Source: Nautiliaceae bacterium (GTDB lineage Bacteria > Campylobacterota > Campylobacteria > Campylobacterales > Nautiliaceae). From it: a DNA stretch of 42,300 nt. The stretch spans positions 32,772 through 75,071 of the forward strand of contig JALVTJ010000056.1 of the NCBI GenBank assembly GCA_027036005.1, written 5' to 3'. Position numbers and translations under genes: made by a program. Shown here piece by piece: positions 13,751-42,300 of the stretch. Below the pieces are notes generated by a model, which was not told the DNA's origin, searched no databases, and saw only the letters and a program-made list of their open reading frames with translations. How positions within the stretch are numbered: position 1 is the stretch's first letter; every line of letters begins with the position of its first letter.

Positions 13751-13827
13751 TGGTCTCCCGGGCGGGATTTGAACCCACGACCTTCGGATTAGGAATCCGA
13801 CGCTCTATCCTGCTGAGCTACCGGGAG
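13751..13827 (-). tRNA. tRNA-Arg (anticodon CCT)
   Basis: This 77-nt tRNA lies on the minus strand. The acceptor stem CTCCCGG pairs perfectly with CCGGGAG and is followed by discriminator A and an encoded CCA (plus-strand TGG at 13751-13753). The D-arm contains GCTCAGCAGGATAGAGC. The anticodon stem TCGGA/TCCGA holds loop TTCCTAA, giving CCT, which reads AGG. The T-arm is GTGGG-TTCAAAT-CCCGC. It sits between sdhA and sdhB, antisense to their transcript, and has its own -10 box at 13835-13840. Confidence 0.96.
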
Positions 13828-20798: not shown

Positions 20799-22652
20799 TT
20801 AGCCGTTTAAAACCTCTACGGCTTTTAACATAAGAAGCCCAGCTTCATTTACGCTGTTTCTTCCCAAGTATTTGGCTTCTCTTGCGGCAATATAGGCTTT
20901 TTCAAAACTTTCTTTGCTTAAAGATGATTTTTTAATGGATTCTTTTAAATTTTCAGGTAAAATTCTAACTTTTTTCTCTTTTACATACATACTTCCCGTT
21001 TCGGCGATAGCTTTTACAACTCTGTATATAATCGGATTGATAGGCGCTCCAAATCCTTCCGGAACCCCGCTCATAGCTTCATCCATCATTTTTCCGTATT
21101 GGGTTTCAATAATATGTCCATCTGGCAATATTTCGATAAAACCTTTGGCTTCCAATTTGTCAATGGCTTCGTAAATTTTTCTTTTTTCTTCTTCATCGCC
21201 TTTTAAAATATCTTTACAAGAAATTCCACTATCCGGAATCATTTTAAAAATATCCATTTCATATTTTGTTACAAAAGGAAATTTTTTATGGGTTGCAAGC
21301 TCTTCATAAAATAAACCTGATTTTGTAGGTTCATATGTTCCTAAAATTCTTTCACGTCTAGCTTCTTCTACCCATTCTTTATTAGGAGCGCTGAAAAGTT
21401 TGTTTGAAATAGCCAGTGTTTTAACTGAGTAGCTGTGGATAGCTCTTTCGTCATAATTTTGATCTTCAAGCACCTTTTTACCGTCTTCCGTGATATAATA
21501 TACTGTCTTAGCGTTTTTATCGATACTCTCTTTTATCAAGCCGAAAGCTTCAAGCGAATACAAATATTCCCTCAAATCGAAATTTTCTTCGAACCATTTT
21601 TTCTTATCTTCTATTTCAGCGTATTTTTTGGCAATTTCTCGTTTTTTCTTAGGCATTTCATCAAGTCTTCTGCCGTATTTTTCAAGTAATTTTTTATATT
21701 CTTTTATTTTTCTTTCAATTAATTCGGCTTTTATTTCTTCAAATGTAGGAGTTTCCTCAGGATTTTCAGGCACTTTTTCATCCCAGATTTTTTGAATTGT
21801 TTTAAGAGTTTGAATTTCTTCATTTTCAATAGCAAATGTTTTTAGAGGTTTTTCCGATTTATCTTTATAAATTTTGTAAACTTCAAGAGCTTTTTTACCG
21901 GCTTTTGTGAGAGTATCCACATCTTGAATATAACCTAAGCTTTCAAGATTTGTAAGTGAGATCAAATTAATCTCTTCTCCATCGGCAACTTTTGCAATAT
22001 CTTCTAAAATGGAAATATCAAGAACGCTTCCTTCATTCGCCCATCCACCATAAGTTAATGTTTCTTTTATCGCTTGGCCTAATTCGGTAAAAGTAAAATA
22101 TTCGCCTCTCGGGATGGAATATGAAATAAGTCTCATTGATTCAAGTAAATCTTTATTATTCCCTTCAATAGGTAGATAATGAGCGTCAGTCGGTCCCGTT
22201 GGAGATTTTCTGATGAAATTTGCAAGTTTTGCATCAATTACAAGTTCCGGTTCGATTATTTTATAAGCTTCATACAAATCAATTGCCTCTTTTGTAAGCT
22301 CTCCATCTTTTGCAAATCCTCTTTTTTCGAGTTCTTCATTTGTAATATCTGTTGTTTTGTTATTGTTTTTTATAGCGCATTCGATCATTGTAATTATTTC
22401 GCTGCTAACCCATTTGAAACTATCTTTCCAATTTTCTATTTTTTCTATTTTATCTTTTACTTTGTTTAAAACATCGGCTATAATGCTTCCTCCATAAGTA
22501 AATTCGACAATGGCGGGCATTGGAAATCTAATAACTCCGCTTAAATTCAATTCTTCCAAAGCTTCGTTGTTAAGAGCTTCGGTTTTAATTGTTTTTGTAT
22601 TGCTATTTAATAATTCAAGTATTATTTTTGCACCTTGTTTTTTGATTATCAT
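20799..22652 (-). CDS. DUF505-family protein with repeated winged-helix-like units
   Basis: This 617-aa soluble protein matches, from memory, DUF505 (PF04458), a family of unknown function found in archaea and thermophilic bacteria. A motif of the form LExxGxI....LTxxGxxxLExY recurs at about residues 35 (NLSGVIRFP), 107 ([13 protein letters not shown]), 236 ([14 protein letters not shown]), 367 ([10 protein letters not shown]) and 500 ([14 protein letters not shown]), with a weaker one near 592. The four from 107 to 500 are about 130 residues apart. The shape suggests serial winged-helix domains, so binding of nucleic acid or protein is possible, but no function is known. It has a near-consensus promoter and a strong GAGGAGGG site, and is convergent with the metal-efflux gene. 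Confidence 0.7.
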
Positions 22653-38479: not shown

Positions 38480-38779
38480 ATGGAAAAATTTGAAGATATA
38501 CTTAAAATCGGAATAGGAGCCGCATTTTTGGCAAAAGAAAAAATGCAAGAATTCATTGAAGAGGCGAAAAAAAGAGGTGAACTTACGGAAAAAGAAGCAA
38601 ACGATTTGATTGAAGAGCTTAAAAAAGAATCGAATGAAAAAATGAATGAAATTCAAGCTTTTATAAAAGAAGAAATCAAAAAACAGTTGAATGAACTTGG
38701 TTTGGCTACCAAAGAAGATATTGAAAAACTTCAAAAAGAATTGGAAGAAGTTAAAAATTTATTAAAAAATGAAAAATAA
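38480..38779 (+). CDS. Phasin-like coiled-coil protein
   Basis: This 99-aa, highly charged helical protein begins MEKFEDILKIGIGAAFLAKE and continues into heptads (ELTEKEANDLIEELKKES). It ends with EDIEKLQKELEEVKNLL. The pattern matches the short phasin-like/PhaI-type proteins often found beside ABC1-kinase genes. No granule synthesis genes are present, so a membrane or scaffold partner of the next gene product is as likely. A strong AAAAAGGAGCCG site precedes the ATG; the end overlaps the UbiB-like start by 11 bases. Confidence 0.6.
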   Translation: MEKFEDILKIGIGAAFLAKEKMQEFIEEAKKRGELTEKEANDLIEELKKESNEKMNEIQAFIKEEIKKQLNELGLATKEDIEKLQKELEEVKNLLKNEK

Positions 38780-40388
38780 AATATATGAATTAAAAAGAAC
38801 AAAAGAGATAATATTTGTTTTGGCCAAATACGGTTTTGGCGATATAATTGAAACATTCGGAATTAAAGTTCCGTTTAAAAAAAAACCTAAAATTTCGCGA
38901 AGCGAAAGAATAAGAAAAGCTGTTGAAGAATTGGGTCCTACTTTTATTAAAATGGCTCAGGCTCTTTCTTTAAGACCTGATCTTATTTCTCTCGATTTGG
39001 TTAAAGAATTCGAAAAGCTCCAAGACAATGTAACTCCGCTTCCTTTTAATGAAATGAAAGCTGTATTGGAAAATGAACTTGAATGTAAAATAGAAGAAAT
39101 TTTCGAAGGCAAGTTTGTTCTTCTTGCAAGTGCGTCCATAGGACAAGTTTATAAAGCTAAATTACTTTCTGGAGAATACGTTGCGGTAAAGATTTTAAAA
39201 CCGGGGATTGAGGAGAAAATTTTTGCCGATTTATATATTTTGGAATATTTTGCAAAAATATTCAGAGATAAATTTTTGATGTATGGAATTGATCTTGAAA
39301 AAATTCTATGGGAGTTTGCTAAATCAATTAAAAAAGAGCTTAATTTTAATTTGGAAGCTTTAAATTTAAAAAGATTTTATTTTAATTTTAAAAACAATAA
39401 CAATATTATAGTTCCGAAATATTATGAAGAACTTTCTTCAAAACGTGTTTTGACAATGGAATATATCAACGGAATCAAAATATCCGATAAGGAAAAACTG
39501 ATAAAAGCGGGATATTCATTGAAAGATATAACCAAAAAAGGTTTTGATTTGATTTGCGAACAGATTTTTTTGCACCGTTTTTTTCATGCGGATCCTCATC
39601 CGGGAAATTTAATGATATATGAAGGAAAGATTGTTTTTTTAGATTTCGGGATAATGGGGAGAATTAGCGAGGAAGATAGAAAAAATTTGGTAGATCTTAT
39701 TTATTATGTAATAAAAAAACAAGAGGAAAAAGCAGCGTTATATATATTAAAACTTTCCAAAATTGAAAAAGAAATTGATGTTTCTTCATTTCAAAGAGAA
39801 ATGGCGGATATTATAGCCAGTTATTTTTATTCTTCACTCAAACAGATAGAATTGAAAAGTATGCTCGATGATGTTTTAAAAGTTATGCAAAGATATAAAA
39901 TCTTTTTTAAAGAAGATAATTATCTTTTTATTAAATCGCTTGTAACAATGGAAGGGGTTGGTAAACAGTTATATCCCGATTTCAATGCTGCAAAAGAGAT
40001 CGCCCCATTTATCAAAAAATTATATCTTTCCGCTTTTTCTTTTAAAAATATTTTTTTTAAAACAAATGAAGTAAATAAATATATTTTGGATTTTTTATAT
40101 ACTCTGCCGGTAGATTTGAGTGAAATTATTAAAAAAATAAAAAAAGGTAATTTAAAAATCGAATTTGAACATGTAGGTCTTGAAGAATTTGAAAAAACAA
40201 TTGCCAAATCATTTAACAGACTTTCTATTTCAATTGTTATCGCTTCCATTTTGATAGGTTCGTCCATGCTTTTAAGCTCACACGTTCCGCCTCTTTTTAA
40301 AAACGTTTCTATTTTCGGGATAATTGGATTTTTCTCTGCATTTGTTTTAGGAATGTTTTTAATAGTGGAAATTTTAAGGAATAAATAA
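38769..40388 (+). CDS. UbiB/ABC1 (AarF) family atypical kinase
   Basis: This 539-aa protein has the atypical kinase fold of UbiB/COQ8, which supports quinone synthesis or lipid handling. The family KxGQ motif reads KMAQ (61-64), with Ala for Gly. The alanine-rich nucleotide loop ASASIGQV (about 120-127), the lysine of VAVKILKP (K141), HADPHPGN (273-280) and LDFGIMGR are all present. Two C-terminal membrane helices (about 480-535) anchor it. This group of bacteria uses menaquinones, so a role in ubiquinone synthesis proper is unlikely. It is coupled on both sides: 11 bases with the phasin-like gene and one base with the WD40 gene. Confidence 0.88.
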   Translation: MKNKIYELKRTKEIIFVLAKYGFGDIIETFGIKVPFKKKPKISRSERIRKAVEELGPTFIKMAQALSLRPDLISLDLVKEFEKLQDNVTPLPFNEMKAVLENELECKIEEIFEGKFVLLASASIGQVYKAKLLSGEYVAVKILKPGIEEKIFADLYILEYFAKIFRDKFLMYGIDLEKILWEFAKSIKKELNFNLEALNLKRFYFNFKNNNNIIVPKYYEELSSKRVLTMEYINGIKISDKEKLIKAGYSLKDITKKGFDLICEQIFLHRFFHADPHPGNLMIYEGKIVFLDFGIMGRISEEDRKNLVDLIYYVIKKQEEKAALYILKLSKIEKEIDVSSFQREMADIIASYFYSSLKQIELKSMLDDVLKVMQRYKIFFKEDNYLFIKSLVTMEGVGKQLYPDFNAAKEIAPFIKKLYLSAFSFKNIFFKTNEVNKYILDFLYTLPVDLSEIIKKIKKGNLKIEFEHVGLEEFEKTIAKSFNRLSISIVIASILIGSSMLLSSHVPPLFKNVSIFGIIGFFSAFVLGMFLIVEILRNK

Positions 40389-42205
40389 TGAAAAAGTTTT
40401 TTAAAATCAATAAAAAAATCTCTTATATTTACACCAACAACAAATTTTTGATTTTGGTAGATGAGGAAAACAGATTTTTTTATTTCGACGAATCGTTTAA
40501 ATTTATAAAAGGAATCAAATTTAATCTTCCTTCAAACAAATCAGATGAAAACGGTGTTAAAATTTCAACTGATGCTAAATATGCGCTAATTGCAATAAAA
40601 AATGTTTTAACGCTTTGGGATTTGGAAAGTAAAAAACATCTTGCTTCTTTTTTGCATAAAAAAGATATTTTAAGTGTCGCTATTAGTAAGGATAACAAAT
40701 ATTTTGCATCGGGGGATATAGAAGGGAAAGTATTTGTATATAATTTGAATTTAAAGAAAAAAACGTATGAATTGAAAAAACACAGAGATTTTATTACCGA
40801 TTTAAGCTTTTATGAAGACAGAAGTCATTTGGTTGCAGGAGGATATGATAAATGCGTTATTTTTTATAATTTACATACATTTGATAAAAAAGATAAATAT
40901 TATCATTTAAAACCTGTAAAAAAAATAAAATTGGATAAATATTTGATAAGTGTGGATGAAATCGGCACAATTATAAATTGGGATAAACTGAAAAAGGAAT
41001 TCAAAGACATAAGCAAATTTTATAATAATTTTAGGGATTTTGCTCTTTTTAGAGAATATATAATTATTGCAAGTGATAAAAATGTAATTATTTATAATTT
41101 AAAAGATTTAGTTATTGAAAACGATAATTTTTTGGAATTTGAAAATATCGATAAAATAGCGATATTTAAAGAATTTTTAATTATTTCAAATAAAAGCGGT
41201 GAAATATATTTCAGAAGTCTTTTTGAAGAAGAAAAACTGTTTTTGGATTTGATTATAAAAGAGGATTTTAAAAGCGCTTTTGAATTGATAGATAAAAATC
41301 CTTTTTTAAAATTTTCCAAAGGTTATGAAAGGTTAAATAAAATAATTGAACTTTATATAAACAAAGCAAAAGATCTTTTTTTAACAAACGAAGCAAAAGC
41401 TTTGGAAATTTTGGATAAATTTTTGTTAATTCCTCAACTTCGAGAAAAAATTCAAAAAACAATTAATCATTTTAAAAATTATAAAAAATTTGTTTTTGCA
41501 ATAAAAAAAGAAAATTTTGCTTTGGCTTATTTTCTTGCGAATCGCTATGAAATGTTAAAAGAGACGAAATATTACAGATTGCTTGAAAAAAGATGGGAAA
41601 TCGCTTTTGAAAAAGCAAAAGAATATGCTCTTAAAGGGGATAACTTAGATGTAAAAGAGATATTAGAGCCTTTTATGATAGTTAAAGAAAAAATTCCATT
41701 AATTGAATTGTTGTTAAACGAACCAGATGTATTTAAAAGTTTAAAGGAAAAATTGAGTGAAAGGGATTTTAAAGGATTTTTTGAAATTATAAAAAAATAT
41801 CCGGAATTAAAAAATACAGCCGAATATAAAAAAGTAATCAATTATGCAAACGAATTATACAAATTTGCAAATAAATTTATTTCAGAAGAAGAATTTGAAA
41901 AAGCTAAAAAAGCCGCTTTAATTTTTAAAAACATCGAAGGTTTTGAAGATAAAGCCGAAAAATTGCTTGAAGAAATAAAAATAGGATTAAAATTTTTGGG
42001 TTATATTCAAAAAAAAGAGTATCAAAAAGCTTTTGAATTAACTGAACGATATGCATTTTTAAAAAATCTAAAAAGTTATAAGGATTTGATCAAAAAACAT
42101 AACGATGTTTATGAAAAAGCCGAAAAATTAATCGCAAACGGAAAAACTGAAAAAGCAAAAGAACTTTTGCAAAACGAAGGCGTATTAAAAAGAATATCAT
42201 TATAG
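40388..42205 (+). CDS. WD40-type beta-propeller with four tandem alpha-helical repeats
   Basis: This 605-aa protein has no signal peptide or membrane helix. Residues 1 to about 285 form WD40-like blades (LTLWDLESKKHLASF, LSVAISKDNKYFASGD, ITDLSFYEDRSHLVAGGYD, SVDEIGTIINWD). From 290 to the end is alpha-helical. A motif of acidic residue, aromatic, two residues, then AFELI...LK-x(2,4)-Y recurs with its first aromatic at F294, F377, F461 and Y545, spacings of 83, 84 and 84. The lysines closing the motif (K308, K391, K475, K559) keep the same spacing. This is a propeller followed by a solenoid, a scaffold architecture. The function is unknown; coupling to the UbiB-like gene suggests a shared membrane process. 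Confidence 0.78.
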   Translation: MKKFFKINKKISYIYTNNKFLILVDEENRFFYFDESFKFIKGIKFNLPSNKSDENGVKISTDAKYALIAIKNVLTLWDLESKKHLASFLHKKDILSVAISKDNKYFASGDIEGKVFVYNLNLKKKTYELKKHRDFITDLSFYEDRSHLVAGGYDKCVIFYNLHTFDKKDKYYHLKPVKKIKLDKYLISVDEIGTIINWDKLKKEFKDISKFYNNFRDFALFREYIIIASDKNVIIYNLKDLVIENDNFLEFENIDKIAIFKEFLIISNKSGEIYFRSLFEEEKLFLDLIIKEDFKSAFELIDKNPFLKFSKGYERLNKIIELYINKAKDLFLTNEAKALEILDKFLLIPQLREKIQKTINHFKNYKKFVFAIKKENFALAYFLANRYEMLKETKYYRLLEKRWEIAFEKAKEYALKGDNLDVKEILEPFMIVKEKIPLIELLLNEPDVFKSLKEKLSERDFKGFFEIIKKYPELKNTAEYKKVINYANELYKFANKFISEEEFEKAKKAALIFKNIEGFEDKAEKLLEEIKIGLKFLGYIQKKEYQKAFELTERYAFLKNLKSYKDLIKKHNDVYEKAEKLIANGKTEKAKELLQNEGVLKRISL

Positions 42206-42278: not shown

Positions 42279-42300
42279 ATGTGGTACCGGCGGTGTGTAC
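42277..42300 (-). CDS. Possible 3' end of a minus-strand gene cut by the window edge
   Basis: Reading leftward from the edge gives VHTAGTT followed by TAA (42279-42277). The last bases are much more G+C-rich than the flanking non-coding DNA, and a hairpin lies just beyond, as for a convergent gene end. Seven codons are too few to name a product or to be sure it is coding. Confidence 0.25.
   Translation of the reverse strand, partial: VHTAGTT

Follow-up and report, generated by a model that had tools for sequence, protein, structure and literature searches.

A Campylobacterota protein family with a predicted WD40 propeller followed by a solenoid of 84-residue helical repeats

Background

The window analysed here, a stretch of 42,300 nucleotides that ends with its contig in a 1.4-Mb draft genome, carries a gene for a protein predicted to consist of an N-terminal WD40 beta-propeller and a C-terminal alpha-solenoid built from 84-residue units. 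The gene belongs to an uncharacterised family of Campylobacterota whose repeat is absent from Pfam, and the protein is probably a cytosolic two-domain scaffold, in which propeller and TPR-like solenoid would bind partner proteins. A 2010 survey of 225 proteomes, updated in 2009, reported proteins with a propeller followed by a solenoid from eukaryotes and the planctomycete group only and linked the architecture to internal membranes (PMC2799638). The initial annotation of the present gene had described a coat-like architecture. The layout stands in the structural models, whereas no coat protein was matched by sequence or among the top fold matches and no sign of a membrane association was seen, and the best reading is that the family is coat-like in layout only. 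Our search of the open-access literature found no papers on the family, an absence that is weak evidence.

The gene and its surroundings

The gene is intact and occupies positions 40388..42205 on the plus strand, encoding 605 amino acids, as judged from the list of open reading frames, the sequence itself and two copies from the same genus (606 and 601 aa, 67-68% identical to the window protein). AAGG precedes the start codon, and the ATG shares one base with the stop codon of an ABC1/UbiB-family gene (TAATG), which lies directly upstream at 38769..40388 on the plus strand and is identified by Pfam (PF03109) and synteny. Since ubiB adjoins the propeller-solenoid gene in six of the ten mapped Nautiliaceae copies, it is treated as context and not as a proven partner; the proposal that UbiB is an obligate partner was dropped, ubiB being missing at that spot in the other 4/10 related loci. 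In Nautiliaceae, fliG-fliH-dxs come first, msrA, a phasin-like gene and ubiB follow in combinations that vary, and the propeller-solenoid gene comes after these. The phasin-like gene, which is conserved near the propeller-solenoid gene in this family of bacteria, encodes in the window a 99-aa helical protein (38480-38779, plus strand) with a Phasin-family match of 31.7 bits against a cut-off of 28.8.

The last bases of the window, 42285-42300, resemble by eye the reverse complement of a conserved 16S rRNA stretch, with no Rfam match at such length; because of this resemblance, an rRNA repeat may be the cause of the contig break. Elsewhere the window encodes a 617-aa DUF505 protein (20799-22652, minus strand; Pfam E 1.2e-223) and its sole tRNA, a tRNA-Arg (CCT) at 13751-13827 on the minus strand.

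Predicted structure

The propeller spans residues 3-277 (40394..41218, plus strand), on the evidence of Pfam PF00400 (41.5 bits, the cut-off being 27), the strands of the AlphaFold2 model and Foldseek. The model of the window protein, with a mean pLDDT of 88.4 and a pTM of 0.71, places strands at 3-277 and helices at 282-596. Its propeller is partly degenerate, having 27 strands with one weak blade and a pLDDT below 50 at residues 200-204. A 714-aa relative gave a more regular model (pLDDT 91.7, pTM 0.80), in which 28 strands form seven blades of four and helices run from 300 to 702. The best fold match of the propeller was PDB 5yzv, the WD40 domain of PkwA, with a TM-score of 0.88 normalised to the PDB chain. 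As modelled, the domain is a closed seven-bladed propeller of ordinary WD40 fold. The order of domains put forward by the initial annotation, a propeller and then a solenoid, is thus upheld by Pfam, by AlphaFold2 and by the fold match to a solved WD40 domain, and the structure prediction that it had proposed as a check returned both a propeller at the N-terminus and repeated helices with a period of 84 residues. No transmembrane segment was found in the window protein by hydropathy, the highest 19-residue value being 1.28.

The same genome holds a further WD40 protein (locus L048, contig C68, 4-2548, minus strand), cut at the contig end, with a TIR domain, an nSTAND1 NTPase and a C-terminal WD40 region; its domains suggest a possible signalling or defence ATPase.

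The 84-residue repeat

The repeat was confirmed by self-comparison both of the single sequence and of profiles. Matched against itself, the segment of residues 282-605 scores best at lags of 168, 84 and 42, and the BLOSUM62 sum at lag 84 is +62, against a mean of -136 for 2000 shuffles (sd 26, maximum -40). When profiles were aligned with hhalign, units 286-369, 370-453, 454-537 and 538-605 matched one another nearly end to end, with pair scores of 53-108, whereas controls with shuffled columns did not exceed 18. Inside a unit the two 42-residue halves show no match to one another, but corresponding halves taken from different units mostly match; the true period is therefore 84.

All four units lie on the plus strand. 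Unit 1 (41243..41494) and unit 3 (41747..41998) are delimited by hhalign and AlphaFold2, and unit 2 (41495..41746), the most conserved across the family, by hhalign and conservation. Unit 4 (41999..42202) is shortened and was placed by alignment with relatives of ~700-713 aa and by the model of the 714-aa relative. The AlphaFold2 models give all units a common order of helices, of 10, 5 and ~22 residues, followed by two or three shorter ones.

The residues on which the repeat had been proposed were located correctly: the aromatics F294, F377, F461 and Y545 are spaced by 83, 84 and 84 residues, and the lysines K308, K391, K475 and K559 are where they were said to be. The motif given for each unit, (F/Y)xxA(F/Y)xLxxxYxxLKxxxxY, needs correction for unit 1, which has N304 in place of tyrosine at the tenth position, and for unit 3, which has F464 in place of alanine at the third. 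The lysines described as closing each unit are present in the window copy and are not conserved family-wide; among 40 members they occur in 30, 53 and 50% at units 1-3, and the equivalent position of unit 4 is mostly glutamate. The core that is conserved in the family begins with an aromatic-A-aromatic helix, NP or YP, a leucine and a tyrosine, and continues with E..W, an alanine and then G, A, F, P and K.

The observation that the last unit is cut short also proved right, as the window copy ends inside unit 4. Relatives of about 710 aa (about 700-714) have four full units and a C-terminal cap, which the window copy lacks. The last unit is short because the window copy is in a fast-evolving clade of Nautiliaceae that has lost the C-terminal end, and since complete same-genus copies likewise stop near 601-617 residues, the shortening is a property of the clade and not an error of assembly.

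Relation to TPR and other known repeats

The solenoid falls in no Pfam family. No TPR model reached its curated cut-off and none is listed for the window solenoid; TPR_19 matches four of 28 family members weakly, with a best E of 0.006. Nor does the spacing fit the 34-residue TPR hairpin, the period being 84 residues and the sub-period 42. Among PDB sequences the best matches of the unit profile are designed helical repeats, the top one being a designed TPR-like protein with 42-residue spacing, whose whole-chain E of 1.3e-7 is the sum over five weak copies, none of them significant singly; a consensus TPR protein comes next, at E 0.1. We read the solenoid as TPR-like in kind, on the strength of a weak nearest resemblance which does not imply membership in the TPR family. 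The comparison with coatomer and TPR families that the initial annotation called for therefore yielded this weak TPR-like similarity and, by sequence, no coat protein, neither the solenoid profile nor its unit profile having matched one.

Distribution and phylogeny

The solenoid profile matches 121 of the 397 Campylobacterota genomes sampled, a search which serves as its positive control. The named relatives are from Nautiliales and other Campylobacterota, and the named carrier contigs include Nautiliaceae, Sulfuricurvum, Sulfurimonas, Hydrogenimonas and others. The same profile found nothing that reached E 0.001 in 308 genomes from three other phyla (149, 80 and 79 genomes from the phyla of the loci L099, Pirellulaceae, L103, Blastocatellia, and L096, Planktothrix, respectively); one short match at E 0.005 was seen among the 149 genomes of the Pirellulaceae phylum. 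Set against these three phyla, the family is provisionally restricted to Campylobacterota. A search of plasmids returned no match covering more than 80% of the query, and the ten matches listed all fell in the propeller.

In the tree, the window copy belongs to a Nautiliaceae clade on a long branch beside copies linked to polA; in a reduced tree it falls outside both the polA-linked and the ilvA-linked copies. Gene order had hinted at orthology with the dxs-linked copies of f7 (f7, f20, f16 and g52 are group codes, and L-numbers denote loci), a grouping with the window clade that involves long branches and that the AU test rejects (p 4e-6).

Gene neighbourhoods in relatives

The main subfamilies stand beside unrelated housekeeping genes (ilvA and gppA, polA, recJ, dprA-ruvX, ispG and ubiB), so that gene order yields no single function. 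In three lineages the propeller-solenoid gene has a PAS and/or response-regulator gene as its immediate upstream neighbour at 25 of 26 loci: 18 of the 19 f20 loci with the upstream flank present, 4/4 in f7 and 3/3 in genus g52 of f16. These loci are not all independent, since L161 and L162 are nearly identical, and at L168 and L175, both of f20, the signalling gene is seen in part because the flank ends. The exception, L179, lacks such a gene in that position; the second gene upstream there is a histidine-kinase ATPase gene. At L161, the first f20 pair examined, the two genes overlap by about 22 bases. Upstream signalling genes lie on the minus strand at L145 (9589-10875), L146 (8815-9639) and L154 (9123-9926), where the encoded proteins resemble one another, and further ones occur at L161-L178, L184-L187 and L196-L198. 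In seven upstream proteins examined, Pfam sees receiver and PAS domains only, and no output domain was recognised.

Function

As WD40 and TPR-like domains are in general protein-binding modules, the family most likely acts as a cytosolic scaffold. The seven-bladed WD40 propeller would be joined to a TPR-like solenoid of 84-residue units, each predicted to form two helical hairpins. By analogy with other WD40 and TPR proteins, each domain may bind partner proteins or peptides and the two together may hold these in proximity; the process served would most probably be signalling or some other regulated one in the cytosol. In part of the family, gene order in relatives suggests signalling, and a signalling role is supported by that evidence for some relatives only. 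The window copy is a shortened, fast-evolving Nautiliaceae paralogue that has no signalling neighbour.

A narrower proposal is unlikely, namely that all family members, the window copy included, serve PAS and response-regulator proteins specifically as their output or scaffold partner. The directly upstream signalling genes of the three lineages, their overlap with the propeller-solenoid gene in f20 and the mutual similarity of the upstream proteins all argue for such a partnership; however, no PAS or response-regulator neighbour is seen at the window locus or beside the ilvA-, polA-, recJ- and dprA-linked copies, and the three lineages rank among the more diverged branches of the tree. Where these operons do exist they offer an immediate route to functional tests.

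We regard a role in DNA processing as improbable. Copies beside DNA polymerase I, RecJ and DprA-RuvX, and near RecN, brought it to attention, with neighbours annotated as polA, recJ, dprA and ruvX and recN named from its sequence only. The pattern was, however, noticed after the fact; polA is oriented divergently, ilvA, gppA, ispG and ubiB are also among the contexts, and no nucleic-acid-binding domain was seen.

Although its predicted domain order and size class match the membrane-coat architecture of eukaryotes and planctomycetes (PMC2799638), it is very doubtful that the protein is a bacterial membrane coat or pore scaffold that curves or lines a membrane like clathrin, Sec31 or the Y-complex nucleoporins, given that no sequence link to coat proteins was found, that none is among the top 50 listed fold matches, that the 149 genomes from the phylum of a Pirellulaceae contig gave a single weak, short match, that there is no transmembrane segment and that some relatives adjoin PAS or response-regulator genes.

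Comparison with known systems

The eukaryotic coats and nuclear-pore scaffolds (clathrin, Sec31, the COPI subunits, Nup120/133) share with the window family the order of a propeller and then an alpha-solenoid. In contrast to them, the window family has one propeller and a short solenoid, with no sequence similarity found and no sign of a membrane link. The fold queries were two full-length models, those of the window protein and of the 714-aa relative, for which propellers fill the top lists; among the best 50 PDB fold matches listed for each there was no coat protein or nucleoporin, and all were WD40 or other propellers. With no coat protein found by sequence or in the fold lists, the suggestion that the likeness may be convergent is the better-supported reading. 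It is most improbable that members of the family oligomerise into coat-like assemblies on a membrane or a polar structure of the bacterium, as a propeller-solenoid coat invented independently outside eukaryotes and planctomycetes. Campylobacterota are not known to have internal compartments.

The coat-like proteins of Planctomycetes, Verrucomicrobia and Lentisphaerae (Santarella-Mellwig 2010, PMC2799638) are also bacterial and have the same coarse architecture, and the 605-720 aa of the present family fall inside the 500-1500 aa range screened in that survey. They would differ in sequence, as the 149 genomes tested from the phylum of the Pirellulaceae contig gave no convincing match to the solenoid profile. 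If the scaffold reading is right, a propeller followed by a solenoid does not by itself identify a bacterial membrane coat; the same layout in ~30% of the sampled Campylobacterota, with no sign of a coat role, would make the architecture alone weaker evidence for coats.

The WD40 domain of PkwA (PDB 5yzv) is alike in its propeller fold. PkwA itself is a kinase and is not known to have a comparable solenoid. Compared with the proteins that combine WD40 and TPR-like solenoid domains, the window family has a repeat that is truly of 84 residues, with unlike halves, and that stands outside every Pfam family; it is like them in its N-terminal seven-bladed WD40 propeller, in its C-terminal helical-hairpin repeats and in probably being soluble.
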